A DNA stretch of 64,000 bases from Pseudomonadota bacterium (GTDB taxonomy: Bacteria; Pseudomonadota; Gammaproteobacteria; Steroidobacterales; Steroidobacteraceae): positions 1 through 64,000 of the forward strand of contig JAKAXA010000017.1 of the NCBI GenBank assembly GCA_021816775.1, read 5' to 3'. The translations under genes and the position numbers were made by a program. The stretch's first letter is position 1; the number at the start of each line of letters is the position of its first letter. Positions 22,753-37,780 of this stretch are shown here, one piece after another. The notes below the pieces were generated by a model. The model saw nothing but the letters and a program-made list of their open reading frames with translations. It was not told the DNA's origin and did no database searches.

Positions 22753-24375
22753 TTAGGGCGCGCCGCCGCGCGAGGGATGATCGAGGCGCGGGTAAAGCGT
22801 GAGCAGTGCTTGCGTCACGCCATTCGTCCAGCCGAAGCCGTCCTGCAGCGGGTACTCACCGCCGCCCCCCGGCAGCTCGCGCTCGACGTTGTATTTTTCG
22901 ACCAGTTTGCCGGTGTTGCGGTACACGCGCCGCACGGTGGCCACCCAGCGTCGCGCGATACGGAAGGCGAGTTGGGGGTGACCGTAGCGGCGCAGCCCCT
23001 CGACCGCGATCCACTGCAGAGGTGCCCAGCCGTTCGGTGCGTCCCACTGTTGGCCGGTCGCGATGGTGGTGGTCACGATGCCGCCGGGCTGCAGCAGGCG
23101 GGCCCGCGTGACGGCGGCCACTGCGCTCGCCCGGTGCGCATCGGCCAGTCCGACGAACAGCGGATAGAGAGTCGCGGCGCTGAGCTCACCGGTGCGCCGG
23201 CGGCTGCGCCAGTCGTAATCGGAGTAGTACCCGCGGCGCGCATCCCACAGATACCGGTCGACGGCCTCGCGCCGGCGGCGCGCACGGGCCGCGAAGCGGC
23301 GCGCGCACGGCAGATCGTGCCGCGCGGCGCATCCGCGGGAGATGGCCCGCTCCATTCCATATAACAGACTGTTCAGGTCGATCGGCACGATGTCGGTGGT
23401 GCGGATGGTGCTGAGGTGGCGCTCATCACCCAGCCAGCGTGAGCTGAAGTCCCAGCCGCTCTCGGCTGCGGCGCGCAGGTCGCGGTAGACGCGTGCCGGC
23501 GGCCGGCCGGACGCGCGGGCCAGCAACACGTCGTTGCGATAAGACTCGTCGCGCGGCGTGTCCGCCTCGGACCAATAGCGGTTGAGCAAGGCCCCGTCGG
23601 GCATCGCCACGACGTTGCGCCGCGCCTGTCCGGGGCGAAGGCCCGCCGCGCCCCGCATCCAGTACGCATACTCGCGCCGCAGCGTCGCGAGATGATCGGC
23701 CCAGGCCCGCGCCGGATCACGCGGATCGAGCAGCCCGATCATGAGGTAATAGACGGGCGGCTGGGAGCGCGAGAGATAGTAGGTGCGCGTCCCGTTGGGA
23801 ATGTGCCCGTACGTGCGGATCAGATAGGAGAAGTCATCGATCATGTCCCGCGCATTCGCCATGCGCCCGTCGGGAATGAGCCCGAGCATCGTGAAATACG
23901 AGTCCCAGTAATAGAACTCCCGGAACCGCCCGCCCGGAATGACGTAGGGCTTCGGCACGTACAGCAGCGAGGAGTACAGCGGCGGCACGGTCGCCGGGCG
24001 GGTCAGCAGCGGCCACAGCGCCGCGATGTGCGCCCGCAGCGTTGCGGTCTTGGGCACGCGCGTACGGTCCGGCGGCGGCAGGGTGAAGTTGCGCTCCACG
24101 AAACGCAACAGCGCCTTGCGTGTGCGCGGATTGTCGTTGCGGAAGCGTTGCAGAATGACCTGGGGCGAGGCCTTGGGGATGGCATCGACGAAGGTCTTCC
24201 CGTCCGGGAACACTCCGGCCATCTGCACGCGCACGAACAGGGGGCCGAACAGCTTCGCGGGGGTCGGATAAAAGGCGTGCGCCGCGGCGCTCGTGATCCC
24301 CGCCAGCGCCAGTGCTGCGCCCAGCGCCGCCGCGCGGCGCACCCCCTGGACGGGAATCCTCAGATGATTGCTCAT
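22753..24375 (-). CDS. treA: periplasmic alpha,alpha-trehalase (GH37)
   Basis: A 540-residue GH37 (alpha/alpha)6-barrel hydrolase that splits trehalose into two glucose units. A signal peptide is present (AALGAALALAGITSAAAHA). Both trehalase signatures occur: PGGRFREFYYWDSYF near residue 147 and QWDAPNGWAP near 442. The catalytic pair is D309 (SGWDFSSRW) and E493 (EKYN), at nearly the same positions as D312 and E496 of E. coli TreA. The gene is divergent from the glycosidase operon; its predicted promoter (TATCAT at 24623-24618) carries the shared operator. Leader would be about 236 nt and the ribosome site is weak. Confidence 0.95.
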   Translation of the reverse strand: MSNHLRIPVQGVRRAAALGAALALAGITSAAAHAFYPTPAKLFGPLFVRVQMAGVFPDGKTFVDAIPKASPQVILQRFRNDNPRTRKALLRFVERNFTLPPPDRTRVPKTATLRAHIAALWPLLTRPATVPPLYSSLLYVPKPYVIPGGRFREFYYWDSYFTMLGLIPDGRMANARDMIDDFSYLIRTYGHIPNGTRTYYLSRSQPPVYYLMIGLLDPRDPARAWADHLATLRREYAYWMRGAAGLRPGQARRNVVAMPDGALLNRYWSEADTPRDESYRNDVLLARASGRPPARVYRDLRAAAESGWDFSSRWLGDERHLSTIRTTDIVPIDLNSLLYGMERAISRGCAARHDLPCARRFAARARRRREAVDRYLWDARRGYYSDYDWRSRRRTGELSAATLYPLFVGLADAHRASAVAAVTRARLLQPGGIVTTTIATGQQWDAPNGWAPLQWIAVEGLRRYGHPQLAFRIARRWVATVRRVYRNTGKLVEKYNVERELPGGGGEYPLQDGFGWTNGVTQALLTLYPRLDHPSRGGAP

Positions 24376-24587: not shown

Positions 24588-24646
24588 TTGCCACTCTGGC
24601 ATGACATCGATACCATCATGATATCGATGTCATGAGGGCGTTGCAA
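24588..24646. promoter_or_regulatory. divergent promoters with paired operators between trehalase and glycosidase operon
   Basis: Plus strand: TTGCCA (24588-24593), 17 bp, TACCAT (24611-24616) drives the glycosidase operon with +1 near 24623. Minus strand: TTGCAA (24646-24641), 17 bp, TATCAT (24623-24618) drives trehalase. Each spacer and -10 is covered by a 16-bp pseudo-palindrome: ATGACATCGATACCAT (24601-24616) and ATGATATCGATGTCAT (24618-24633). Together the outer arms make a perfect 12-bp inverted repeat. The central CG palindrome is typical of LacI-family sites (inference); the same 16-mer occurs before the TonB receptor. Confidence 0.8.
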
Positions 24647-24690
24647 TACTATCCGACGGCCCCGCGGCGGGCCGCGAGAGGAAAGCATCC

Positions 24691-26784
24691 ATGCGAGTTC
24701 GTCTCTCATCCTGGACCCGGCCGGCGCGGGCCGCGCTGCTGTGCGCGGCCTTGTGCTGTCCCTTGGCCGCGGCCCGCGCCGCTCGCCCCCCGTTGACGTT
24801 CACCGTGCGGCAGGGCCGCTTCTTCAACGCGTTTCTGCGCCAGGGCCCCGTGGCGGGCGACCTGGTGCTGCGCTCCGGACCCGATCCGCGCCTCATCATG
24901 GCCTTCCCGGCCGGCGACAGCGGCGTCGGCGTCTGGTTTGCGCGCGAGCCGCATTGGGCGAACTGGCGCCTGCTCGGCCCGCTGCACCCGGTGCGCGCGC
25001 GCGACCGGCACGGCCGCCCACTCTACGGGATGTCCGCCGTGCTCGAGCTCACCGGCGATGCGGCGTTGCAGGTGCGCCAGGCCGTCCTCTCCAGCATCCG
25101 GGTGCTGCGCGATTACAACTCGCTCGGCAAGCTGCCCGCGGGCATCGAGACGACGCCGATCAGCGATGCGCAGCGCATCACCTGGTCGCGTCAGCGCCTC
25201 GACGGCAGGGTCGGCTACCGGCTGAAGCTCACCGTGCTGCGCGGCCACGTGCGGGGCACTCGCATTCTCGCCGACCGCGCCGGAGTGATCCGCCTGCGCA
25301 TCACCGGCCTGACGGGCGAGCCGCCGCTGACGCCGCTCGCGGGACGGCAGCTGTTGCGTCATCCGCACGCGGGCAGCCGCGCGGCGCGCGACACCCTGAC
25401 GTTCCTGGCGTACCGGCAGAAGTTTCTCGCCGGCTCGTGGCGCTTCGACACCTATTTCGGCCGCGATACGCTGATGAGCGTGCGTCTGCTGATGCCGGCG
25501 CTCACCGGCGCTGCGATCGATGACGCGCTCGACTCGGTGTTGGCGCGATTGTCCGCGGGCGGCCAGGTGGCGCACGAGGAGAACATCGGCGAGCAAGCCG
25601 TGCTCATGAATCTCAAGCGCGGCGTGCGCTCGGACGCGCCGAGCTACACCTATCTGATGATCGATGAGAACTACATGCTCGCGCCCGATGCGGCCGCCTG
25701 GCTGTTGAATCCGCGCGAGCGCTCACGCGCGGCGGCGTTCCTCTCCGCCCCGGTCGGCGGTCCTGAGGCGCGCCAGGGCAGCCACGGCGCGGCGCTGGTG
25801 AGGAACCTGCGCTTCGTGCTCGAGAGCGCCGCTGCCTTCGCCCACGATCCGCGCCGCGCGCATCTGATCGGACTGAAGCCCGGCGTTCCGGTCGGCGACT
25901 GGCGGGACAGCACTACGGGCCTTGGCGGCGGGTACTATCCGTACGACGTGAATGCGGCCCTCGTGCCGGCCGCGCTCGATGCGGCCGCCCGGCTGTACGC
26001 CAGCGGGCTCCTCGATCCGTATCTGACGGCCGCCGAGCGCCCGTTGTTCGCCCAGGCGGCCGAGATGGCGCGGGTCTGGAGCCGGCGCGCCCCGCGCCTG
26101 TTCACCGTGACGGTGCCAAACGCGACGGCGGTGCGCGATGTGCTGCGCTACGCCGAGCTCGACAAGGTCCCCGCGCAACCGGCGGTGCGCGCGCTCGGCC
26201 GCGGGCCGCTGACGTTTCCGGCACTGTCGCTGAGCCGCTCGGGCCGCGCGGTCCCGGTGATGCAATCGGACGTCGGCTATCTGCTGCTGTTCGGCAAGCC
26301 GGCCCCGCAGGATCTCGCCCGGCTGGTCACGATGCTGACCCGGCCGTTTCCCGCCGGACTCATCACGGGCGCCGGCATGGTGGTGGCCAATCCCGCCTTC
26401 GCGCCCCCGGGCCTGCAGACGGAATTCACGCGCCACGCCTACCACGGCACGGTCGTGTGGTCCTGGCAACAGGCGCTGCTCGCCGCGGGTCTGGCGCGCC
26501 AGCTGCATCGCACCGATCTGCCGCCGGCGGTGCGCGCCGGGCTGGAGGCCGCGCAGCGCACGCTGTGGCGGGTGATCGAGGCGACCCACTCGATGGCCAA
26601 CACCGAGCTGTGGTCCTGGACGTATCGGCACGGTCATTACCACCTCCGCCCGTTCGGCTCGGCGAGCTCCGATGCCTCCGAAGCGGATGCGGCGCAGCTC
26701 TGGAGCACGGTGTATCTGGCCATCAAGCCGCCCGCGGGACTGGTGGCCACGGTCCGCGCGGCCGCAGCGGCCGGAGCCCGTTAA
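24691..26784 (+). CDS. exported six-hairpin (alpha/alpha-toroid) glycosidase-like protein, family unassigned
   Basis: A 697-residue protein with an N-terminal signal peptide (AALLCAALCCPLAAARA). Residues 30-230 are beta-rich; the rest looks like an (alpha/alpha)6 toroid. Candidate active-site blocks are WRFDTYFGRDTLM (250-262), HEENIGEQ (295-302), VGDWRDS near 405 followed by the YYPYDVNAALVPAAL block, and the tail SEADAAQLWST. These resemble GH15/GH63/GH65-clan or debranching-type enzymes, yet I cannot assign a CAZy family. It starts with a good ribosome site (GAGGAAA) and overlaps the next gene by one base, TAATG. Probably acts on alpha-glucosides in the periplasm with its neighbours. Confidence 0.75.
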   Translation: MRVRLSSWTRPARAALLCAALCCPLAAARAARPPLTFTVRQGRFFNAFLRQGPVAGDLVLRSGPDPRLIMAFPAGDSGVGVWFAREPHWANWRLLGPLHPVRARDRHGRPLYGMSAVLELTGDAALQVRQAVLSSIRVLRDYNSLGKLPAGIETTPISDAQRITWSRQRLDGRVGYRLKLTVLRGHVRGTRILADRAGVIRLRITGLTGEPPLTPLAGRQLLRHPHAGSRAARDTLTFLAYRQKFLAGSWRFDTYFGRDTLMSVRLLMPALTGAAIDDALDSVLARLSAGGQVAHEENIGEQAVLMNLKRGVRSDAPSYTYLMIDENYMLAPDAAAWLLNPRERSRAAAFLSAPVGGPEARQGSHGAALVRNLRFVLESAAAFAHDPRRAHLIGLKPGVPVGDWRDSTTGLGGGYYPYDVNAALVPAALDAAARLYASGLLDPYLTAAERPLFAQAAEMARVWSRRAPRLFTVTVPNATAVRDVLRYAELDKVPAQPAVRALGRGPLTFPALSLSRSGRAVPVMQSDVGYLLLFGKPAPQDLARLVTMLTRPFPAGLITGAGMVVANPAFAPPGLQTEFTRHAYHGTVVWSWQQALLAAGLARQLHRTDLPPAVRAGLEAAQRTLWRVIEATHSMANTELWSWTYRHGHYHLRPFGSASSDASEADAAQLWSTVYLAIKPPAGLVATVRAAAAAGAR

Positions 26785-29072
26785 TGGCGGGGCGCGGGGG
26801 CGGATCGGCGCGTGCAGTGCGCGTTACGGCGGCCATCTGTGCAACACTGCTCGCGATGACGGCCGTGCGGGCGGCGCAGGCCGATGCGGGGTTCCATCTG
26901 CGGGTGGGGTTCACGGGGCTTGTCAGCTACTTCCCGGGCATGCTCGGCAACGGTTACCTCGCCACGCTCACCGCGCCGCGCGGCACCGAAGCGACGCAAA
27001 CGTACATGGTCGGGCTGATGGACCGCACGCCGGGGGACATCGCCCGCCCGGCGCTGCTGCCGGGATGGAACGCGATCGACTTCGACCCGGATCCGCCAGC
27101 GGCCGCGGCCACTTGGCTGAACCGTGCGGCGCTGACCCCGGCGCATTTCCGCCATTACCGCCAGAGCCTCGATCTGCGCGATGCCACCCTCACGACGCGG
27201 TACCGGTATGTCGATCACTCGCGGGTCACGGCGATCACCGTGGTGAGCTTCATCAGTGAGGCCCAGCCGCATCTGAGCGTCGTCCGGCTGCGCATCACGC
27301 CACGCTACAGCGGCCGGGTCACGCTGTCCTTCCCGCTCACCCTCTGGCCGGCGCATACGCCGCGGTTCGCGCTGGCGCGCCTCACCGGTGCGCAGGTCAA
27401 TCGCGCACTCGCCGCTCACGGTCTGTCGCTGACGCCGCGAGCGCCGGCCACGCCCGACCGCGCCGCGCTGTGGTATCCGGGGTACGTCGCCGTGCGCGCC
27501 ACTGGCGGATCGGCGCGCACCCGCACCCTGTGGCTCGCGGGCCGGGCGGCCAACAGCTTGGCGATCGCCATGGCGGCCGCCGTGTCGCTGCCCGTGGGCG
27601 CGCAGCCAGTGGTCACGCTGCGCCGCGGCGCCGGCCGGCTGGCGCTCGAGGTGACGCTGCGCGTCGAGCGGGGGCGGACGTACACGTTCACGAAATTCGT
27701 GATGCTGTCGCGCTGCGGATGGGGCGGCGATGCGGCCGCGGATCTGCGCCTGGCCCGCGCGGCGCGCAGACACGGATTCGCGGCGCTGCGGGCACAGCAG
27801 CGCGCCGCATGGCACGTGTTGTGGCGCCCCGACATTCTGATCACGGGGGATCCCAAGGCCCAGCAGGTGGCGCATGCGGCGCTCTACTACCTGCTGACCA
27901 ACACCACCCCGGATACGGGGTGGGCGGTCGGACCGTGCGGGCTGACGCTCTGTTACGCCGGGCACGTGTTCTGGGACAGCGACACCTGGGTCTATCCGGC
28001 GCTGCTGCTGCTGCATCCGCGCCGGGCCCGCTCGCTGCTCGCCTTCCGCGAGCGCACGCTGGGGCCGGCCGAGGCGCGTGCGCGCGCGAACGGCTATGCC
28101 GGCGCGATGTATCCCTGGGAGTCCGATCCGTACAATGGCAGCGATCAGACGCCGTATTCCGCGCACGCGCTCTCGCAGAGCGAGATCCACGTCAACGCCG
28201 AGATCGCCATCGCGCAGTGGCAGTACTATCTCGCCACGCTCGATCGCGCCTGGCTGCGGGCGCACGGCTGGCCGGTGATCCGCGCGGTGGCGCGCTTCTT
28301 CGCGAGCCGCGTGACGTATGACGCGCGGACCCACCGCTACGGGATTCTGCATGTGACGTCGGTGTCCGAGTCGCACGGCGACATTCCGAACGACACCTAC
28401 ACCAACATGGTGGCGGCCAAGGCGCTCGACATCGCGGCGGCGGCGGCGCGCGTGCTCGCGGTGCGCGCCGATCCGCGCTGGCGCCGCATCGCCGGCGCGA
28501 TGGACATTGCGCTCGCGCCGAGCGGGCGGCATCATCTGCCTTATCAGGAATCCGGCGCCGCCGCCGCCAGCACGGCCTTCGGCGGCGGGCCGCTGCCGCT
28601 GCTGTTCCTGCCGGCGCTCGATCTGCGCCTGCCGGCGGCGCTGCGCCGGGGTGATTACGACTATGCGGTGCGGCCGATTCCCTCGTCCCGGGTCGGACGC
28701 GTCAGCATGGGGATTCTGCCGTGCGTGGCCGCGGCCGACGAGGTCGGCCTCGGGGCGGAGGCGGGCAGGCGGATCGAGCTCTATCTGACCGGTGGCACGC
28801 TGAAGCCGCCCTTCGACGTGCGCACGGAGACGGCGAGCAATAATGTCGGCCCGTTTCTGACCGGCTCGGGAGGCTATCTGCAGAGTCTGATCTACGGGCT
28901 GACGGGGCTGCGCGTTCGCGCAGGCGGGCTCGTGGACGCGTACCCTGCGGCTTTGCCGCGCGGCTGGCGTTCCCTGACGCTGCGTGACGTGAGCTTTCGG
29001 GGCCGGCGCCTCGATATCACGGTCACGCGGGCCGCAGACGGCTCGGTGCAGCTGAAGCGGAGAGTCCTATGA
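26784..29072 (+). CDS. exported GH65-like alpha-glucoside hydrolase (acid trehalase/PGGHG type)
   Basis: A 762-residue protein with a signal peptide (ICATLLAMTAVRAAQA). It follows the GH65 layout: N-terminal beta-sandwich (about 40-330), linker, (alpha/alpha)6 barrel with GHVFWDSDTWVYP (393-405) and C-terminal small beta domain. By spacing to YTN (residues after it), E529 in SVSESHGDIPNDTYTN aligns with the general acid of acid trehalases and glucosylgalactosylhydroxylysine glucosidases. Phosphorylase members use DEYH instead, so hydrolysis is favoured. Substrate may be trehalose, kojibiose-type or other alpha-glucosides. Start overlaps the upstream TAA (TAATG), and the stop overlaps the GH31 start (ATGA). 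Confidence 0.82.
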   Translation: MAGRGGGSARAVRVTAAICATLLAMTAVRAAQADAGFHLRVGFTGLVSYFPGMLGNGYLATLTAPRGTEATQTYMVGLMDRTPGDIARPALLPGWNAIDFDPDPPAAAATWLNRAALTPAHFRHYRQSLDLRDATLTTRYRYVDHSRVTAITVVSFISEAQPHLSVVRLRITPRYSGRVTLSFPLTLWPAHTPRFALARLTGAQVNRALAAHGLSLTPRAPATPDRAALWYPGYVAVRATGGSARTRTLWLAGRAANSLAIAMAAAVSLPVGAQPVVTLRRGAGRLALEVTLRVERGRTYTFTKFVMLSRCGWGGDAAADLRLARAARRHGFAALRAQQRAAWHVLWRPDILITGDPKAQQVAHAALYYLLTNTTPDTGWAVGPCGLTLCYAGHVFWDSDTWVYPALLLLHPRRARSLLAFRERTLGPAEARARANGYAGAMYPWESDPYNGSDQTPYSAHALSQSEIHVNAEIAIAQWQYYLATLDRAWLRAHGWPVIRAVARFFASRVTYDARTHRYGILHVTSVSESHGDIPNDTYTNMVAAKALDIAAAAARVLAVRADPRWRRIAGAMDIALAPSGRHHLPYQESGAAAASTAFGGGPLPLLFLPALDLRLPAALRRGDYDYAVRPIPSSRVGRVSMGILPCVAAADEVGLGAEAGRRIELYLTGGTLKPPFDVRTETASNNVGPFLTGSGGYLQSLIYGLTGLRVRAGGLVDAYPAALPRGWRSLTLRDVSFRGRRLDITVTRAADGSVQLKRRVL

Positions 29073-31849
29073 GCGCACCGGCGCACCGATCCAGACAGGG
29101 TGGCCTGCGGTGCCTCGGGGCCGCAGTGCTTGCCCTTGCTGCGCTCGGGCTGAGCGCGTGCGCGCGTGGCCCGGTGCGGCACGGCTCGGTCGTCGTCGCC
29201 GGCAAGGCGCGCTTCGAATTCCTCACCCCTTCGCTGGTGCGCATGGAGTATTCGCCGAGCGGAGTGTTCGTGAACGCCCCGTCGGTGGTGGTGCGCAAGC
29301 GCCAGTGGCCGGCCGTGGCGGTGCACATGCGCCAGCGCGGCGGGTGGCTGATCGCCACGACCGGCGCGCTGAGGCTGCGCTACCGACTGCATTCGGGCCG
29401 CTTCACGCCGGACAATCTCAAGGTCACCTGGACGGGTGCGCCGGGCGTCGCGCACAGCTGGCGCCCCGGGCAGCACGATCCGCTCAATCTCGGCGGGCTG
29501 ACCGACTCGCTCGACAACGTGAGCCGGGCCAATCTGCCGCCCGGTCGTTCGGACCTCGAGAGCCCGGTGCACGACATCATCCCGGGGATCGACGTGCCGC
29601 TTGCGCCGGCGCAGCCGGGACTGCTCAGCCGTTCCGGCTACGGACTGATCAACGACAGCGGCACACCGGTGTGGAACGTCGGGCACACCTGGATCGAGCC
29701 GCGCGAGCCGGCCCACGATCAGGACTGGTACCTCTTCGCCTACGGCACGCATTACCGGCGCGCGCTGCGCGAGTACGCCGCGCTCTGCGGCCCGGTGCCC
29801 ATGATCCCGCGTTACGTGCTCGGTCCGATGGTGACCGACCTGAACTTCGAGTACTTCCCCGGCTCGCCCGAGACGCGGGATCCGGCGTTCGCGCGTTACG
29901 GCGTGCGGCATATCAAGCGCGAGCTCCTACGGCTGCGCAGCGAGCACATTCCGGTGGATACGCTGGTGCTCGATTTCGGCTGGCACAACTACGGCTGGGA
30001 CGGCGGCTACGACTGGAGTCCGCTCATCCCTCACCCGCGCCGTTTCATGCGCTGGCTGCACCGGCACGGCTTCAAGCTCGCGCTGAACGATCACCCCGGG
30101 TACGCCAATACCCAGGAGAGCGGCCTGTCGTACCACGACAGTCATGCGGGCGAGGTGCTGCGCGACCTCGGGCGGCCGCTGCCGCCGCGGCCGACGTTCA
30201 ATCTCGATCTGGCGCGCCTGTGGCAGTTCAGCCCCGGGCCGTACACGCCGGGCGAAGCCAGCCGCACGCGCTGGCGGGCGGTGCGCATCGGGTTCACCTG
30301 GCGGGCGCAGCTGCTGCACGGCAGCGGCGGCACGGGCTGGTATCGCGCCACGGTGCGCGTGCCCGCGCCCCTGCCGCGCCATCTGTATCTGTATCTCGGC
30401 GGGGTGGCGGGCTCGTACCAGCTGTTCGTCAACGGCAAGCGCGTGCCGCACAGCCACGTCCAGTGGCCGCAACGGCTGACCTTTGCGGACGTGTCGAGCG
30501 AGATCGTGCCCGGCAAGGTGAATTCGATCGCGCTGCGAATCGAGTCGGCAGCGCAGGGCGGCGGGCTGGTGTTGGGGCCGACCGCCATCCGCAACGTCCC
30601 GCCGCCGCCGCCGATCCGCTTCAACCTCGCCAACCACGTTCAGGCGACGGTGTTCATGCGCGACCTGCACGCGCCGCTCGTGCACGAGGGCGTGAACTTC
30701 TGGTGGGTGGACGGCGGCAGCGGCGCGGCGCGCATGCCGGGGCTGAACCCGCAGCTGTGGACCAACGAGCTGTACTACCGCTCGACGCAGCGCGAGTCGG
30801 GGCGGCGCGGATTCATCCTGGCGCGCTACGGCGGCTGGGGCAGTGAGCGCTATCCGGGGTTCTTCACCGGGGACACCTACTCCGAGTGGCCGGTGCTCGC
30901 CTACGAGGTCGCCTTCTCCGCCCGCGGTGGCAACGAGCTGATCGACTATATCAGCCATGACATCGGCGGCTTCCACGGACGCAAGATTCCGTTCGCGCTC
31001 TACGCACGCTGGATCGAGTTCGGCGCCTTCGGTCCGATTCTGCGCATGCACAGCGCGCACGAGAACCCGTTCGAGGGCAATCTGCGCATGCCCTGGACGT
31101 ACGGGGCGCGCGGCGTGTCGCTGATGCGCCGGTATTTCACGCTGCACACCGAGCTCATCCCGTATCTCTACACGGATGCATGGGTGGCGCACCGCAGGGC
31201 CTTGCCGATCATGCGCCCGCTGTACCTCGAGCACGTGAGCGGCCGGGAGGCCTACCGCCATCCGCACGAGTATTTCCTGGGCGATGACCTGCTGGTCGCG
31301 CCGGTGCTCGATGCGAGCGGCGTGCGCGCCGTGTACCTGCCGTCGGGACAGTGGCTCGACTTGTTCACCGGCAAGCACTACGTGGGCGGCAGGACCTTCA
31401 CCGCACACTACGGCGTGGGCGACACGCCGGTGTTCGTGCGCGCCGGAGCGGTCATTCCGGAGCAGGAGCCGAGCGCCTACTCCAACGCCAAGCCGCTCGA
31501 TCCGCTCGTGCTGCAGGTGTATGGCTCGGGAGACGGGCGGTTCGATCTGTATCAGGACGACGGTATCTCGCTCGATTACCTCAAGGGGCAATACGCCCTG
31601 ACGCCCATCGCCTACGCGACGCACGGCGGGCTGCATCGCCTGGTGATCGGGCCGACACGGGGGGTGTACCACGGCCAGCTGCCGCAGAGGGGGTACGCTA
31701 TTGACATCCATACCCGCCAGCGGCCCGAGGCGCTGGCGATCGACGGCCATGAAGCCACGGGATTTCGCTGGAACGCCGCGCGGCGCCTGGCGCAGATCGA
31801 GCTGCCGAGAAGCAGCATCCGCGATGCGGTGGTGGTCACTTGGCATTGA
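29069..31849 (+). CDS. GH31 alpha-glucosidase lipoprotein with inserted beta-sandwich
   Basis: A 926-residue GH31 glycosidase. The signal ends in the lipobox LSAC, so it is membrane-anchored, probably outer-membrane or periplasmic. Order: N-terminal beta domain (about 40-230), first half of the barrel (VLDFGWHNYGWDGGYDW near 300), an inserted jelly-roll-like domain (about 395-510), second barrel half with predicted nucleophile D548 (FWWVDGG) and acid/base D602 (TGDTYSEW), then C-terminal beta domains. The 54-residue spacing between the two Asp fits GH31. The insert has FVNGKRVP, typical of sugar-binding beta-sandwiches. ATGA overlap with the GH65-like gene ends a three-gene operon. Confidence 0.9.
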   Translation: MSAPAHRSRQGGLRCLGAAVLALAALGLSACARGPVRHGSVVVAGKARFEFLTPSLVRMEYSPSGVFVNAPSVVVRKRQWPAVAVHMRQRGGWLIATTGALRLRYRLHSGRFTPDNLKVTWTGAPGVAHSWRPGQHDPLNLGGLTDSLDNVSRANLPPGRSDLESPVHDIIPGIDVPLAPAQPGLLSRSGYGLINDSGTPVWNVGHTWIEPREPAHDQDWYLFAYGTHYRRALREYAALCGPVPMIPRYVLGPMVTDLNFEYFPGSPETRDPAFARYGVRHIKRELLRLRSEHIPVDTLVLDFGWHNYGWDGGYDWSPLIPHPRRFMRWLHRHGFKLALNDHPGYANTQESGLSYHDSHAGEVLRDLGRPLPPRPTFNLDLARLWQFSPGPYTPGEASRTRWRAVRIGFTWRAQLLHGSGGTGWYRATVRVPAPLPRHLYLYLGGVAGSYQLFVNGKRVPHSHVQWPQRLTFADVSSEIVPGKVNSIALRIESAAQGGGLVLGPTAIRNVPPPPPIRFNLANHVQATVFMRDLHAPLVHEGVNFWWVDGGSGAARMPGLNPQLWTNELYYRSTQRESGRRGFILARYGGWGSERYPGFFTGDTYSEWPVLAYEVAFSARGGNELIDYISHDIGGFHGRKIPFALYARWIEFGAFGPILRMHSAHENPFEGNLRMPWTYGARGVSLMRRYFTLHTELIPYLYTDAWVAHRRALPIMRPLYLEHVSGREAYRHPHEYFLGDDLLVAPVLDASGVRAVYLPSGQWLDLFTGKHYVGGRTFTAHYGVGDTPVFVRAGAVIPEQEPSAYSNAKPLDPLVLQVYGSGDGRFDLYQDDGISLDYLKGQYALTPIAYATHGGLHRLVIGPTRGVYHGQLPQRGYAIDIHTRQRPEALAIDGHEATGFRWNAARRLAQIELPRSSIRDAVVVTWH

Positions 31850-32177
31850 GGTCTGCACCGCTCGGTCTGCATTAAGGCAGGAGCCGGATCGGACCGCTTC
31901 GATGATGAACGCCGCCGCCGGCTGTGCCGGAGCGCCGAGCACTCGCCGGGCCATCGCGTCGGTACCGCGCAATGGCTTGCGTGAAATGGATCACCTGCCC
32001 CGGTGAACGATGATCCAGCACGAATCGCCGGGTGATCACGCGCGGCAACTCGTCGCAAGGATTGTGTCGTTCCGATGTCTGCGCAGGGCTTGCGGCATGA
32101 GCGGCGCCGCACGCATCCGCTCGGCGGGCGAAGTCCGTTGATTTTCGTGGCGGCGCGCAGACGTGTGAGCGACGCGC
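31850..32177. other. intergenic region, nothing recognisable
   Basis: About 328 bp between convergent genes (GH31 and the TPR oxygenase). No clear terminator with a T-tract, repeat or RNA gene is seen. Confidence 0.4.
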
Positions 32178-33998
32178 CTACTGCAGCGGGACGGCGTCAA
32201 AGGCCACGGTCAGGCGCGGCTGAGCGCTCGCAAACGGGACGGTGCCGTGCCAGAAGTACGACGGAAACAGCACCAGCATGCCGACGGCAGGGCGCACGGC
32301 GTATTCGGATTCGAGCGCGGGGGTCGTGATGATGCTGGGCCTGCCAAAGTCGAGCACGCCTTCGTTGGTGCGCGCCTCGGCCATGATGTCAGGCAGCTCG
32401 ATGTAGAAGGCCGAGGAGATCCATCCCCGCGGATGGACGTGGCTCATGTGGAAGCCCCGATTGCGCAGCCGCACCGACCAGCTGCCGTTGAAGCGCCAGC
32501 GGCCGCTGTTGCGCCGCCGCAGCGGATCGGTGCCGCGGCCGATGTGCTCGAGGTACTGGTTGATCGGAGCGGCGAATGCCTTGAACAGGGCCTGGATCGG
32601 CTGATCGGCGCTGCGCGTCAGGTCGCGGGTGGTCTCGGTGCCATGGCGCAGCGATTGGAAGAGCAGGGCATGGCCCTCTGGGTCGTGCAGCCGATCGAGG
32701 CTCTTTTTGAGATCCCGCAGGAACGTTGCCACGTCGGCCCACGGCTCGGGGGCTTCGATGGGCAGTGGCAGAACGAGTTTGCGGTAATCGCAGAGCTGCG
32801 CGTAGCGCTCGTCGCCGAGCAGCCGCATCGCGGTCGTCTGCAGCGCGATGAGGTACTGGTTATTCGGCGCTCGGCTCAGCAGCGCCTCACAGTGGCTCAA
32901 TGCGCAGCGTGCATCGCCGACGCCGAGCTCGGCCGCAGCCAGCAGGCTGCGCGCGGATGCGTCGTCCGGCATGGTTTGCAGTGCGCGCTCGGCGAGTGAC
33001 CGTGCCGTAGCAGGGTCGAATTCGAGCGCCGCGAGACCGGCGCGTACGATCAGGGACGGCGGCGCCTGCGCGCGTTGTGCCCGAGGCGCAAGGCAGGCAT
33101 AAGCGGCCCGGGCATCTCCCGCTCCCTGCAGAATCGCCGCCTTCGCCGCCCACAGCGCATCATCGTCCGGAAACAACTCCAGCGCACGGTCGAGCTGCTG
33201 CGTTGCCTGCGCCAGGTCGCCGCTTCGCACCCAGACCAGCTGCGCGAGGTTGTTGTGGGCTTCGATCAGGCGCGGCTCGAGCCTCAGACAGTCGCGTAGT
33301 GCGGCCTCCGCGCCCGCGCAATCGCCTTCCGCCATGAGGCTCTGCGCCAGCGCATGAGAGATCGCGGCCGTCTTGTGCCCGTGCAACAGCGCGCGGCGGG
33401 CGATCTGACCCGCCTGTGCGTGCTCGCCCGCGGCATTCAGAGCGATGGCCAGCGCCTGGGCGGCCGCCGGATCGGCCGGGGCCGCGGCGGCGATGCGCCG
33501 ATAGTGATCGACCGCTTCCGTCTGGCGGCCGAGGGCGATCAGCGCATTGACGTGTTGGGTGGCGAGCTGCGCATCCATCCGGCCCTGCGCGCAGAATGGT
33601 GCCGCTACCGCGAGAGCCTGGGCCGGGCGGCCGCTGACGTTGTAGCGGCGAGCCAATACCATCGCGGCGCGCGGATCGGGCGTCCCTGCGGCAAGCGCTC
33701 GCTGCAACACCGCCTCCGCCTCGGCCGTTCGTCCGCTCGAGAGCAAAAGCTCGCCAAGCATCGTGAGGGTCGGGGTCCAGGCCGGATTGACCTCGATCGC
33801 GTGCCGCAGAAGTGCCTCGGCACCCGCCGGATCACCGAGAACGAGTTTCGCACCGGCCAGGAGACGCTGGGCCTCGGCGAACTCGGGATAAGACGCGACG
33901 ATGGGGCCGAGCCGATCATGCGCGGCGCGATACTCGCCGGCTTGAAGCTGTGCGCTGATTTCGCGCATCGCTTCGAGGACGGAAGCCGGAACTGACAC
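32178..33998 (-). CDS. TPR protein with C-terminal 2OG-Fe(II) oxygenase domain
   Basis: A 606-residue protein. Residues about 1-400 are TPR-like helical repeats (recurring A-x-x-x-x-x-LLRxAIExNP pattern). The C-terminal 200 residues match the putative 2OG-Fe(II) oxygenase type (PF13759-like): Fe ligand candidates are H in SHVHPRGWISSAFYI and H in FPSYFWHGTVPF, with R in QPRLTVAFD for 2-oxoglutarate. Such proteins often adjoin TonB-dependent receptors in proteobacteria; role unproven. No signal peptide, so cytosolic. GTG 33998 was chosen because GAGG lies about 10 nt upstream; ATG 33968 is an alternative. It is followed downstream by the convergent GH31 gene. Confidence 0.82.
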   Translation of the reverse strand: MSVPASVLEAMREISAQLQAGEYRAAHDRLGPIVASYPEFAEAQRLLAGAKLVLGDPAGAEALLRHAIEVNPAWTPTLTMLGELLLSSGRTAEAEAVLQRALAAGTPDPRAAMVLARRYNVSGRPAQALAVAAPFCAQGRMDAQLATQHVNALIALGRQTEAVDHYRRIAAAAPADPAAAQALAIALNAAGEHAQAGQIARRALLHGHKTAAISHALAQSLMAEGDCAGAEAALRDCLRLEPRLIEAHNNLAQLVWVRSGDLAQATQQLDRALELFPDDDALWAAKAAILQGAGDARAAYACLAPRAQRAQAPPSLIVRAGLAALEFDPATARSLAERALQTMPDDASARSLLAAAELGVGDARCALSHCEALLSRAPNNQYLIALQTTAMRLLGDERYAQLCDYRKLVLPLPIEAPEPWADVATFLRDLKKSLDRLHDPEGHALLFQSLRHGTETTRDLTRSADQPIQALFKAFAAPINQYLEHIGRGTDPLRRRNSGRWRFNGSWSVRLRNRGFHMSHVHPRGWISSAFYIELPDIMAEARTNEGVLDFGRPSIITTPALESEYAVRPAVGMLVLFPSYFWHGTVPFASAQPRLTVAFDAVPLQ

Positions 33999-34424
33999 GT
34001 CGAACGGACCTCGCGAGGGGACACAGCTGGCGGTGATTTTCGCACAGGGCGGTGGACGCGCACAGCGGCTCGCAGGCCGTCGCCATTGCATTGCCGCGCA
34101 GCCGCCGCCAACCGATGCGCTCGGGCCGGCATCGACCCCCTCGCGCCCATCGGCGCGAGCGGGCTCATTCAGGCGCGACCCCTCAATTGCACTCGGCGGA
34201 AGCGTTCGCCTCCCGGCCCGCCTCGCAGCGAGCCCGGTCGGGCCGCCGAATACGATCTTGCCGCCGAACGTGCAAGCGCTCGGCGGGACCCTCAGTCATG
34301 GCGTCCCCGACCCTTGCTTCCGATGTGGTCCCGGACACGGCCAAAGCAAGTCCGGAATCAGCCACACGCATTACGAGGAAGATCTCCCCTCACGTGACCG
34401 TGAGGGGAGACCGTCGCAGTGGCG
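33999..34424. other. intergenic region holding only the receptor terminator
   Basis: About 426 bp between the TPR oxygenase and the TonB receptor, both on the minus strand. Apart from the hairpin at 34383-34410 I see no gene or repeat; it probably holds the oxygenase promoter. Confidence 0.4.
34383..34410 (-). terminator. terminator hairpin after the TonB receptor
   Basis: TCTCCCCTCACG and CGTGAGGGGAGA form a perfect 12-bp stem with a TGAC loop, about 15 bp past the receptor stop. On the minus strand it is followed by GATCTTCCTCG, only modestly T-rich. Confidence 0.65.
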
Positions 34425-37034
34425 TTACCAGTGGTATTTGACCATTACGTTGACTTCACGGCCAAGGATCGATCGGCCGAAACCGACGTTATTCTGCACC
34501 GTGTTGCCGCCGAACCGGGCGTTACCCTCGGTTAACCCCAGCTGGTTGGTGAGGTTTGAGCCGAGCACGCGGATCTCCCAGTGTGACCCGATCATGGCAT
34601 CGACGCCCGCAGCCAGGTCGTAATAGGCGGGCAGCGGCGACAATCCCGTGTTGTCCTGATAGCGCAGGCCAATGTCCTCGTACGTCAACTCCTCGGTCAA
34701 TGTGCCCCAGCTGAACGCCTGTATGTCGCTCGGGGTTATCCGGAACTGATACTTCGGCAGACGCGCGAGCTGGTTGCCGTTGATCGTGCCGCAGACCGTC
34801 TGATTGTTGATGTTCGTGTACAGGAAGCAGCCGCGGAAGTTGGTGTAATAAGCGTCTTCCCAGTTGCCGTTGACCGCTATCCTGAAGGACCGCAGAGCCG
34901 AGATATCACTCGCCGCGAAGGGGCTGACACTCCCCGTGAGGCTCACGCCGGTGGAGGTCGATCCGTAGGTGGAAGCCGGGCCGATCGGCACATTATTGAT
35001 ATTCGTGGGGGTGTACGCGATGCCCTTGAATGTCTTGCGGTAGACCGATGCGTCGATGTAGGTCCAGCGGTTCTGAACCTTGAAACCGAACTCGTAGTTC
35101 TGCACCGTTTGCAGCGGCACTCTGCTCGGGCAGCCGTTCGAGCCGTTGTAGACATTGCAGCGGACGTCGTCGAAGTTCTCGAAGAGCACTCCATTATTGA
35201 TGCGCACATAGGCGCTCATGTGGTTGTTGAACTGGTAATTCGCGCCCACGGAGTACGTTGGCATGGTGTTGTTTTCGTGGCCGTGCGACCACGTGCCGTT
35301 CGGCAGTTCCACCGCATTGTCCCACAGGTCGTACTGCGTCCCCATCTGGACCGGCGAGCTGTTGGTCGTCTCCTGAGACAAATTGATGTGCTCGACGCGG
35401 ATCCCGGCGTCGAACAGCCATTTGTCAATCTTCCATTGATCGGCGAAGTAGGGGGCAATGTTCGTGGCGCTGCCGTTCTGCAGGATGTAGTAGCCGCCGT
35501 TGGCATTGACGATGCCCTGCGGGCTGGACACCTGGTAGATGTTGCCACCCGCGGTGGCTGACAGGATGATCGGCGCCGCGTTCGGCCGATTCGTGATCAG
35601 CACGTTGGAGCTGAGCGACCAGTTGTCGCTCATGGTGTAGTGGGCGAGGTACAGGCCCAGGGTCGCGGTATTGCCGAAGCCGAGGTCCTTGTTTACACGA
35701 AATTCATCGATGTAGCTGCGGATCCTCTTCTGCACGTACCAGACCTGCTGGGTGACCACGCTCTGATTGAGGTTCGCGGGCTGGCCGTTGGCATAGGTGG
35801 CCTGCACCATGCTCGGGGTCAGGATGCTGGGCAGGGTCAAGCCCGAAAGGAACGACGACAGCGTGGAGGGATTGCCGTTGTTGATCAGAGCGTGCGTCGG
35901 CACCAGGCCGCCATCGAAGATGAAGTTGTTGCTGATGGACCAGCCGTTGCCCAATCGGTCGTGCATCGCCGAGCCGATATAGTTCAGATCCGCGCCTCGG
36001 CCCTTGCTGATGTTGTCGTTCTCGAAGCAGTTGCACGCCGGATTCGGGACCTGGAAATTCTCGAGCTGGTAGCTGTTGTAGGTGGAATTGAGCTGATCGA
36101 AGCCGGGATAGACCCCAACCGAGCCGTTGTGCACGGTATAGGGGAAGTCCGCGACCCATTGATTATGGTCGTGCAGGGTTCGGGCCCAGAACATGATCGA
36201 GCCATGGGCGAGATCATGCTTCAATGTGACGGTCAGCTGCCCGCCGTCGTCAGCGGGATATTGGGGATTTCGGATACCGTTTGATTTGCGGTAAAAGCCA
36301 CCGATGCTGCCGTACCAGCCGTCAGTGAGCTTGCCGCTCGTGAACGCATCGATGCGGTAGAGGCCCTGGGATCCGTAAGTGACGCCTACGTCCCCTTTTT
36401 CCCGGTCCGAGCCGGTGCGCAGGATGAAGTTGGCCGTCGCGCCCGGCTGGCCCGGGCCGAAGATTGCGCTGGGTCCGCCTTGGACAATCTCGACCCGTTT
36501 GACGGTGTCGTCCATGCGGATCAGCGAGCTGTTGTCCATGAACGACAGAAACGGAGCGCCGTAGAGGGGCGAACCCTCGATCATGGTCGTGAAATACGGT
36601 GAATCGCCGCCGCCGAGCGGAAACCCGGCCACGTCGATATTGACGCCGGTTTGTCCGCCGGAGGCTTCCGGCCAAACGCCGGGCGAAAGTTTATAGATCT
36701 CCGCTGCGCTCGAGGGGTCCGACATTGCGATCTGATGTCTCGACAGTGCAACGATGTTGTAGCTCGCGTCCAGCTGTTTCACGGCCATCGCCGTGGCGGT
36801 CACGACAACTTCCTGCAGCGGCTCGGCCGGCAGAGACGCCGTGGCGTGTGGCTTGGCCGGCGCCGGCTTGGCGAGCGCCGTGCCGGAGGCCGTGAGCAGG
36901 GCGGCTCCGCCGAGAATGCTGGCAACCACCGCGGCGACGCTGTGGGGCGCGGCGGTGCTGCGGGCACCGCGTGTCGCCGGATGCATTGCCGGGCCGACGC
37001 CCGCGCGGGGCGCCTTCTTCTTGGTCACTCTCAT
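34425..37034 (-). CDS. TonB-dependent outer-membrane receptor (carbohydrate locus)
   Basis: An 869-residue receptor. After a twin-Arg-free signal segment (about residues 30-56) comes a TonB-box-like stretch QEVVVTATA, the plug domain (about 80-220; KRVEIVQGGPSAIFGPGQPGATAN is the end of the plug) and a 22-strand barrel ending in aromatic YHW. It should import a large or scarce ligand using TonB energy. The shared operator/promoter with the trehalase and glycosidase genes points to an oligosaccharide ligand such as an alpha-glucoside (inference); siderophore uptake is the alternative. ATG 37034 has AGGAGG about 8 nt upstream. The predicted leader is about 340 nt. Confidence 0.9.
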   Translation of the reverse strand: MRVTKKKAPRAGVGPAMHPATRGARSTAAPHSVAAVVASILGGAALLTASGTALAKPAPAKPHATASLPAEPLQEVVVTATAMAVKQLDASYNIVALSRHQIAMSDPSSAAEIYKLSPGVWPEASGGQTGVNIDVAGFPLGGGDSPYFTTMIEGSPLYGAPFLSFMDNSSLIRMDDTVKRVEIVQGGPSAIFGPGQPGATANFILRTGSDREKGDVGVTYGSQGLYRIDAFTSGKLTDGWYGSIGGFYRKSNGIRNPQYPADDGGQLTVTLKHDLAHGSIMFWARTLHDHNQWVADFPYTVHNGSVGVYPGFDQLNSTYNSYQLENFQVPNPACNCFENDNISKGRGADLNYIGSAMHDRLGNGWSISNNFIFDGGLVPTHALINNGNPSTLSSFLSGLTLPSILTPSMVQATYANGQPANLNQSVVTQQVWYVQKRIRSYIDEFRVNKDLGFGNTATLGLYLAHYTMSDNWSLSSNVLITNRPNAAPIILSATAGGNIYQVSSPQGIVNANGGYYILQNGSATNIAPYFADQWKIDKWLFDAGIRVEHINLSQETTNSSPVQMGTQYDLWDNAVELPNGTWSHGHENNTMPTYSVGANYQFNNHMSAYVRINNGVLFENFDDVRCNVYNGSNGCPSRVPLQTVQNYEFGFKVQNRWTYIDASVYRKTFKGIAYTPTNINNVPIGPASTYGSTSTGVSLTGSVSPFAASDISALRSFRIAVNGNWEDAYYTNFRGCFLYTNINNQTVCGTINGNQLARLPKYQFRITPSDIQAFSWGTLTEELTYEDIGLRYQDNTGLSPLPAYYDLAAGVDAMIGSHWEIRVLGSNLTNQLGLTEGNARFGGNTVQNNVGFGRSILGREVNVMVKYHW

Positions 37035-37780
37035 GCAAGATCCTCCTATCGGATAGCTGAAGATGTCAGGGCTGATGGGCCGCGCCGGCTGACGCGCGCA
37101 AAGGCAAGACAGGAATGTTTGTGAGTGGAATCGGCGCGTAAGGACTGGACAGTCCCTGCGCTGCGGCTGGCATCACACCCCGGTGTTGCACCGAGGTCAC
37201 ATCGACAGGTCCACTGCCGCCACGCCGCGTGCTGCGTTCGGACGCGCCCCGAGGACGGCTTCGCGCAAGGCGATCCGGCTGCGGCGGATGCAGGTCCAAC
37301 GACAAGGAGCACGGCGGTTCCCCCCCGAAATACCGCTGAAAGAGTCGATATCATCCCGAGCAAGATCGATGACATCGATAACAAATGATATCGATGTCAT
37401 GATTTCAATGCAATAGCACGTGTGGCGCGCGGCGCAACGAGGGGCTCGGCAGCGGTGCGCGGGCGCGGTTTCGGATGTGGTAAGAACGCAACGCGCCGGC
37501 CGCCGGGTTCGACGCCTCAGTATTATCAGAGACTTACGGTATACGCGGAAGAGCGCGCGCCTCCAGGCGCTGTGAGTTGGCTGCCCGCGCGGCGTGCGGC
37601 TCACGGGGTGGCCGGAAGTCTGAGCACGGTGCGGGGGCGGTGGAGGCCGGCGGCGGCGCGAGCCGGTGAGAGGGGCGCAGCACGGCGCGCGCCGCCGGGT
37701 TTGTCGGATATATCCCGTGGACCAAATCCCACAGCACGCCGCATCTTCGCGCCGCCCGCAGGGCCAAGCGCAAGGTCGGC
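37035..37780. other. long intergenic region: receptor leader and operator
   Basis: About 745 bp without a supported gene. The half near the receptor is its predicted 5' leader (about 37035-37378) with no known riboswitch. The operator and promoter lie at 37345-37413. From 37414 to 37780 I see only the region upstream of the XRE gene, without a clear promoter. Confidence 0.45.
37345..37413 (-). promoter_or_regulatory. TonB receptor promoter with operator shared with the glycosidase genes
   Basis: On the minus strand, TTGCAT (37413-37408), a 17-bp spacer and TATCAT (37390-37385). The 16-mer ATGATATCGATGTCAT (37385-37400) is identical to the trehalase operator. A diverged site ATGACATCGATAACAA (37369-37384) abuts it, and together they hold a perfect 12-bp inverted repeat with 8-nt spacer. 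A further partial copy, TCGATATCAT (37345-37354), is in the leader. Confidence 0.8.

Follow-up and report, generated by a model that had tools for sequence, protein, structure and literature searches.

Which regulator controls the sugar-related genes of this contig, and where is it encoded? The question is raised by two loci of the window, i.e., the whole 64-kb stretch of contig JAKAXA010000017.1 that was analysed: the intergenic region between a trehalase gene and an operon of presumed glycosidases, and the upstream region of a TonB-dependent receptor gene. The first-pass annotation had described promoters overlapped by 16-bp pseudo-palindromes at both loci and had predicted a single repressor, possibly of LacI type, with its gene somewhere outside the window. 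The observation is confirmed, and the LacI interpretation is supported and extended by a named regulator. As judged from the sequences, both loci very likely belong to a split LacI-family regulon, controlled by a LacI-family protein encoded on another contig (C60) of the same genome (G000) and presumably released from repression by an alpha-glucobiose.

The pattern TTGCNN-N17-TAYCAT has three matches in the window, exactly at the three promoters as they had been placed (shuffle mean 0.03). Spacers and -10 hexamers are covered by candidate operators, two per locus, which read as first described: the 16-mers 24618-24633 and 37385-37400 are identical. At each locus the outer 12-bp arms (ATGACATCGATA / TATCGATGTCAT) are inverted copies of each other without a mismatch; the gap between them is 9 bp at one locus and 8 bp at the other. 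The copies had been said to abut at both loci; start to start they are 16 bp apart at the receptor locus but 17 bp apart at the trehalase locus. The inner half-sites coincide with the -10 hexamers and deviate (ACCAT, AACAA), the outer arms being perfect. The pattern ATGAYATCGATNNCAT (up to 2 mismatches) gives 8 strand-matches in the window, all within the four 16-mers, for 0.39 expected. A CG-centred scan against ATGACATCGATGTCAT (up to 3 mismatches) gives the four 16-mers only, and first-order Markov shuffles of that scan (n=200) give a mean of 0.12 sites, a maximum of 2 and zero close pairs. The four candidate operators are CG-centred, palindromic, of even length and located at the target promoters, which is typical of a LacI-family regulon.

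When one mismatch is allowed, a search of the whole genome (3.94 Mb in 90 contigs, completeness 97%) finds ATGACATCGATNNCAT at the two loci of the window and at C65:15598 only; the control, the reversed pattern, gives 0 matches and is a weak one, with an unusual codon make-up. The many unrelated genes with the motif that were named beforehand as a sign against common control are not seen. At C65:15598 (L031:7599) there is a single site, ATGACATCGCTGTCAT, with a different centre; it was weighed as a possible third target and is left unassigned. It is flanked by a DUF5597 gene and by the gene of another TonB receptor, and G070 has it too (L134:7901). The site C52:7441 (AAGATATCGATCACAT) was rejected as an operator because it lies inside a long reading frame (L132:6846-8870).

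The candidate regulator comes from a genus-wide pattern search (58 genomes). Among the matches listed, a further site, ATGATATCGATATCTT, recurs, and in each of the 5 genomes where its surroundings were read, a LacI-family gene follows directly. The corresponding protein of the own genome (C60 LacI) contains PF00356 (LacI helix-turn-helix), PF00532 and PF13377 (sugar-binding domain), all above cut-off. Between its gene and the gene of a major facilitator superfamily (MFS) transporter lies a single weaker site, ATGATATCGATATC / ATGATATCGATATCGA; the proposed search for a LacI gene with an upstream copy of the motif has thus succeeded. A site before the regulator's own gene is frequent in LacI-family regulons, though not universal. 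Upstream of LacI orthologues (at least 84% identity) ATGATATCGATATC is exact in 15/20 cases, own genome included, and degenerate in 5/20. By eye, it overlaps a TTTACG-N18-ATGATA-like LacI promoter. It can be proposed with good confidence that the missing regulator is the C60 LacI. No regulon of this LacI subfamily was found in the literature searched on regulators and sugar loci, although the supplements of Ravcheev 2014 may list one.

The distribution of gene and operators in the genus points in the same direction. The exact operator occurs in 24 of the 58 genomes and the LacI orthologue in 20, all among those 24, i.e., the operator is found in 20/20 genomes with the orthologue vs. 4/38 without (Fisher 6e-12, a value that ignores kinship). 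The four operator genomes without the orthologue are G010 (single site, at another place), G006, G012 and G018. The same comparison can be made for the two targets. The first gene of the operon, which codes for a 697-aa protein, has matches in 28 of the 60 genomes searched, own genome included. Upstream of it, operators are present in 11 of the 21 loci read and absent in 10, i.e., present in 9/9 LacI-bearing genomes vs. 2/12 others (G006, G012). For the receptor, 56/58 genomes matched somewhere; the comparison started from the 30 best loci and, with three truncated ones left out (L114, L115 and L122), covers 27. Tandem sites, spaced by 16 or 30 bp, precede the receptor homologue in 12/27 loci, i.e., in 12/13 LacI-bearing genomes vs. 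0/14 others. The motif is lost in relatives that keep the genes, which had been named as a sign against the prediction: it is absent before receptor homologues 68-83% identical in G034, G065, G031 and others. In the loci compared, this loss is seen in genomes where the LacI gene was not found, and it therefore supports the regulator rather than refuting it. Taken together, the co-occurrence supports the C60 LacI as regulator, without being a proof.

The operators themselves are conserved where they occur. Over 11 genomes, the 33-bp operator pair 24601-24633 is 96% identical to the window, vs. 53% for the flanks. Among these loci, G006 has one clean copy and a changed second one, and G007 has three copies. 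Just beyond the pair, a stretch at 24641-24655 (plus strand, TTGCAATACYATC) is conserved past the trehalase -35 in the majority of the 11 genomes aligned. Where operators precede the receptor gene (12 loci), the -35 is TTGCAT (10), TTGCGT (1) or TTGCAA (1), and the -10 is TATCAT (11) or TACCAT (1). The receptor tree implies three changes of operator label, the sites preceding three separate receptor lineages; its long branches (G014, G003, G077) make the placement unsure, and G003 is the sole row of one operator lineage.

The same LacI subfamily was searched in a collection of species genomes with the LacI alignment A1; there are at least 557 relatives, and the analysis covers the 80 best. These 80 loci include Dyella, Rhodanobacter, Oleiagrimonas, Lysobacter, Pseudoxanthomonas, Luteimonas, Massilia, Janthinobacterium and Nitrospirillum. 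The content of the 6-kb flanks depends on the LacI class: (i) at 50-84% identity (n=62), a homologue of the receptor is found in 57/62 loci, of the glycoside hydrolase (GH) of family GH65 in 56/62, of both in 52/62 and of the MFS gene in 9/62; (ii) at 84% or more (n=11), the values are 0/11 for the receptor, 0/11 for GH65 and 10/11 for MFS; (iii) below 50% (n=7), they are 2/7, 1/7 and 1/7, respectively. Motifs were counted in 78/80 loci (L191 and L250, which end at the LacI edge, were left out). The density of sites near LacI is about 69 times that found elsewhere (121 in 136,646 bp vs. 10 in 776,320 bp), for a pattern picked after inspection. Operator-type sites are near LacI in 58/61 loci at 53-84% identity, 3/10 at 84% or more and 2/7 below 53%; only 3/10 are counted in the closest class because the single site of these loci is degenerate and fails the strict pattern. 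Close sites are spaced by 14 bp (41 pairs), 21 bp (8), 39 bp (1) and 41 bp (3).

Of these GH65 neighbours, four were looked at: three are fusions with beta-phosphoglucomutase (L183, L209 and L227, from two Dyella and one Pseudoxanthomonas), whereas L234 (Janthinobacterium) has separate genes for the two; these loci therefore look like phosphorylase pathways. L209 also contains a kojibiose-hydrolase-like GH65 and an MFS gene 69% identical to that of the own genome. Within the own genus, a LacI homologue of G032 (61%) is divergent from a receptor gene, and tandem sites lie in the space that separates the two. The own genome (G000) has receptor and enzymes on contig C12 and transporter and LacI on C60, so that they do not form one locus as in a CUT locus (TonB receptor-based carbohydrate utilisation). 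Given the clustering of receptor, GH65, LacI and sites in the other genera, and of receptor, LacI and sites in G032, it looks as if the regulon of the window had arisen by the splitting of a locus which other genomes keep together.

Several results weigh against the C60 LacI as regulator of both loci. (i) Its own site lacks the last two bases of the operator (ATGATATCGATATCGA), and autoregulation is doubtful in the 5/20 orthologues where this site is further lost while the target operators are kept. (ii) No LacI orthologue was detected in G006, G012 and G018 (completeness 88, 91 and 90%) despite their operators, which also adjoin receptor homologues, outside the 27 rows compared. (iii) The sole LacI-bearing row without operator is G014 L124, a distant receptor paralogue. 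(iv) The co-occurrence is largely that of one clade: the receptor tree has 3 independent contrasts, of which 2 agree, 0 oppose and 1 is tied, and which are therefore too few for a test. (v) A LacI paralogue of another type (L032, encoded on G000:C65) co-occurs too, the operator being present in 17/18 genomes with this type (p 3e-8), including G006, G012 and G018, and palindromes of similar look such as ATGATTGCGTTATCAT lie upstream of its gene.

A role of the L032-type protein as the actual regulator, or as a second protein at the operators beside the C60 LacI, is nevertheless improbable in our opinion. Its orthologues (at least 84%) occur in 17/24 operator-bearing genomes and 1/34 others, and its helix is similar (SPMTVSR vs. 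SPITVSR). In G018, ATGATATCGATATCAT lies upstream of the L032-type gene, where the near-identical operator L170:6234 (G018:C255) is located. On the contrary, the L032 type (at least 84%) is missing from 7 operator-bearing genomes, including G066 (97% complete), G071 (96%) and G036 (93%); the palindrome upstream of its gene in the own genome differs in the centre; and the own 20-kb L032 stretch, in which a glucuronate isomerase gene is also found, contains no CG-centred palindrome that combines 6 or more A/T bases with at least 6/7 matched pairs. A further paralogue, of the L033 type (at least 68%), is accompanied by the operator in 13/13 genomes (p 8e-7) and is missing from 11 operator-bearing genomes. 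Both paralogues track the same clade and co-occurrence alone therefore separates regulators poorly; the upstream site and the gene neighbourhoods do separate the candidate C60 LacI from them. A near-identical tandem site also precedes a HAD hydrolase gene in G003:C45 (L133:6734). With the operator at L170:6234, it hints at cross-talk between paralogous LacI proteins. The 20-kb stretch around the C41 LacI gene contains ABC transporter genes and, at L033:18898, a perfect palindrome (GTGTAAACGTTTACAC) that looks like a GalR-type operator.

An equally small probability is given to the C60 LacI being an activator or a dual regulator, and not a plain repressor, at one promoter or more. The pairing at 16-17 bp would place two dimers on roughly opposite DNA faces, unlike the 13, 22 and 32 bp peaks given in the accessible part of PMC4052901, and the second receptor site is downstream of the -10. 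However, in all three promoters the sites overlap the -10 and some of the spacer, i.e., the classic position for a steric block. Moreover, the spacing is not constant: it is 16, 17 or 30 bp among orthologues and 14 or 21 bp in the other genera, and a strict geometry of activation fits poorly with this. Lastly, a binder of another, non-LacI family is very improbable: the site is a 16-bp CG-centred palindrome of LacI type and such sites are near the LacI gene in the 58/61 loci already mentioned.

The features of the two loci and of the regulator locus are given in Table 1.

Table 1. Promoters, candidate operators and genes of the predicted regulon (window coordinates unless a contig or locus is given).
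Feature	Position	Strand	Remarks
Rightward promoter of the 24691-31849 operon (predicted, sigma70-type)	24588-24616	+	TTGCCA-N17-TACCAT; -35 82% identical to window over 11 genomes
Trehalase promoter (predicted)	24618-24646	-	TTGCAA-N17-TATCAT; faces rightward promoter; -35 98% identical to window over 11 genomes
Receptor promoter (predicted)	37385-37413	-	TTGCAT-N17-TATCAT
Candidate operator, trehalase locus, copy 1	24601-24616	+	ATGACATCGATACCAT; holds -10 TACCAT of rightward promoter
Candidate operator, trehalase locus, copy 2	24618-24633	-	ATGATATCGATGTCAT (minus strand ATGACATCGATATCAT); holds -10 TATCAT of trehalase promoter
Candidate operator, receptor locus, copy 1	37385-37400	-	ATGATATCGATGTCAT (minus strand ATGACATCGATATCAT); holds receptor -10
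Candidate operator, receptor locus, copy 2	37369-37384	-	ATGACATCGATAACAA (minus strand TTGTTATCGATGTCAT); directly downstream of receptor -10
LacI-family gene (C60 LacI), candidate regulator	G000:C60:161986-162996 (L037:14987-15997)		Other contig than window; divergent from MFS gene
MFS inner-membrane transporter gene	L037:13648-14916		Divergent from C60 LacI; Pfam match
Alpha,alpha-trehalase (GH37), presumed periplasmic	22753-24375	-	Pfam PF01204, E 1.5e-151
697-aa protein, presumed glycosidase	24691-26784	+	Signal-like N-terminus; from fold and context
GH65 protein	26784-29072	+	Pfam GH65; start codon overlaps preceding stop; open reading frame opens at 26457
GH31 protein	29069-31849	+	Pfam GH31; lipobox-like N-terminus by eye
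TonB-dependent receptor	34425-37034	-	Pfam Plug and beta-barrel
TPR and 2OG-Fe(II) oxygenase-like protein	32178-34091	-	Pfam; directly downstream of receptor

The trehalase is above cut-off for two NCBIfam TreF/TreA subfamily models and below it for the TreA equivalog; its N-terminus has a signal-like stretch (by eye). On the other side, the 697-aa, GH65 and GH31 genes have overlapping stop and start codons. This set had been called a glycosidase operon; its first gene matches no known family and is classed as a glycosidase from fold and context only. Its product has zero sequence matches in Pfam, NCBIfam and PDB. The structure model (pLDDT 71, i.e., moderate) predicts a beta-sandwich and an alpha/alpha-barrel, with weak Foldseek matches to GH94, GH63 and GH95 structures (TM to query at most 0.37). 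A stretch GSWRFDTYFGRDTL is conserved in the protein. The model alignment A3 covers 18/30 loci, partial rows and L053, with an internal stop, being left out. It is thus possible that the 697-aa protein is a glycosidase of an undescribed family.

For the GH65 protein, the best NCBIfam model is kojibiose hydrolase (NF053734) with 295.8 bits, under the curated cut-off of 800, and the best PDB match is 7fe3. For the GH31 protein, the best PDB match is 7wj9, an alpha-1,3-glucosidase structure. This code occurs in PMC9061262, whose accessible part describes a GH31 alpha-1,3-glucosidase with a preference for nigerose, then kojibiose, and reports no activity on trehalose. The nearest relatives of trehalase, GH65 and GH31 therefore suggest alpha-1,1, alpha-1,2 and alpha-1,3 glucobioses as substrates. 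The TPR/2OG-Fe(II) oxygenase-like gene is possibly co-transcribed with the receptor gene. Elsewhere in the genome, a tryptophan-halogenase family gene (L031:2694-4199) is in the same stretch as a receptor gene.

LacI-family proteins are mostly repressors released by a sugar. In the proposed mechanism, C60 LacI dimers would bind the paired 16-bp operators when the inducer is absent and would block RNA polymerase. The inner half-sites are the -10 hexamers, so that the block would be a direct steric one; this overlap may also explain why the inner halves deviate from the palindrome. The two predicted promoters of the intergenic region (24588-24646) point towards each other; a single base pair separates their -10 hexamers, and the predicted starts are 24623 and 24611. 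Thus one operator pair would shut both the trehalase gene and the GH operon. The proposed inducer is a glucobiose with an alpha linkage, of the kojibiose, nigerose or trehalose class, or something derived from it. It would release the C60 LacI; the receptor, the periplasmic hydrolases and the MFS transporter would then be made together. The analysis shows the sites, the promoter-like hexamers, their conservation, the co-occurrence with the LacI gene and the gene neighbourhoods; we infer the binding, the repression, the promoter activity at these hexamers, the effector and the transport substrate, and the choice of a substrate among the alpha-glucobioses is a guess.

The facing promoters can be compared with the bidirectional promoters of E. 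coli (Warman et al. 2026, PMC12825309), for which the accessible text describes divergent starts around shared -10 elements, commonly separated by 18, 10 and 23 bp. The predicted separation is 12 bp here; the difference is that each predicted -10 is also half of a repressor-type palindrome, conserved over 11 genomes. A more far-reaching proposal, of which we are rather doubtful, is that the intergenic region is a bidirectional promoter whose -10 elements are the half-sites of a twin operator, that it is used by polymerase in one orientation at a time with the repressor gating both, and that the 697-aa protein, as a member of an undescribed glycosidase family, acts on the same alpha-glucobiose.

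Three known systems are close to the predicted regulon, as far as the accessible parts of the sources go. (i) In the sux locus of Xanthomonas campestris, the LacI/GalR-family repressor SuxR controls a TonB-dependent receptor together with a transporter of the inner membrane and an enzyme that cuts the sugar (PMC1790865). A LacI-family protein is also paired here with a receptor, a transporter and sugar-cutting enzymes; sux is however one locus and serves for sucrose, whereas the present set is spread over at least two contigs and includes GH37, GH65 and GH31. (ii) YcjW of E. coli, a LacI-family protein, is tied to a GH65 kojibiose phosphorylase and a beta-phosphoglucomutase, and kojibiose released it from DNA in vitro (PMC6599011). 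Relatives of the C60 LacI likewise adjoin GH65 and beta-phosphoglucomutase (fused in 3/4 examined). On the contrary, that text as available mentions no TonB receptor for YcjW, and the own genome has hydrolase-type enzymes and a trehalase; the likeness is not a claim of orthology. (iii) The survey of Ravcheev et al. 2014 (PMC4052901) gives more than one LacI-family site before about 20% of regulated operons, with intersite peaks at 13, 22 and 32 bp. Tandem sites are common to both, but the distances differ (16, 17 and 30 bp in the own genus, 14 and 21 bp in other genera).

A LacI-controlled sugar regulon with a TonB receptor is thus a known and fairly ordinary kind of bacterial control. What the present analysis would add is that a sugar-import system so far uncharacterised, from an uncultured genus, is given a candidate regulator, a candidate operator and a set of genes. 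The same LacI subfamily would extend this assignment to loci of Dyella, Rhodanobacter, Lysobacter, Pseudoxanthomonas, Massilia and Nitrospirillum. The alpha-glucobiose effector is a directly testable prediction, and the paired operators, whose halves are the predicted facing -10 elements, would allow a compact test of how a repressor can control bidirectional promoters.

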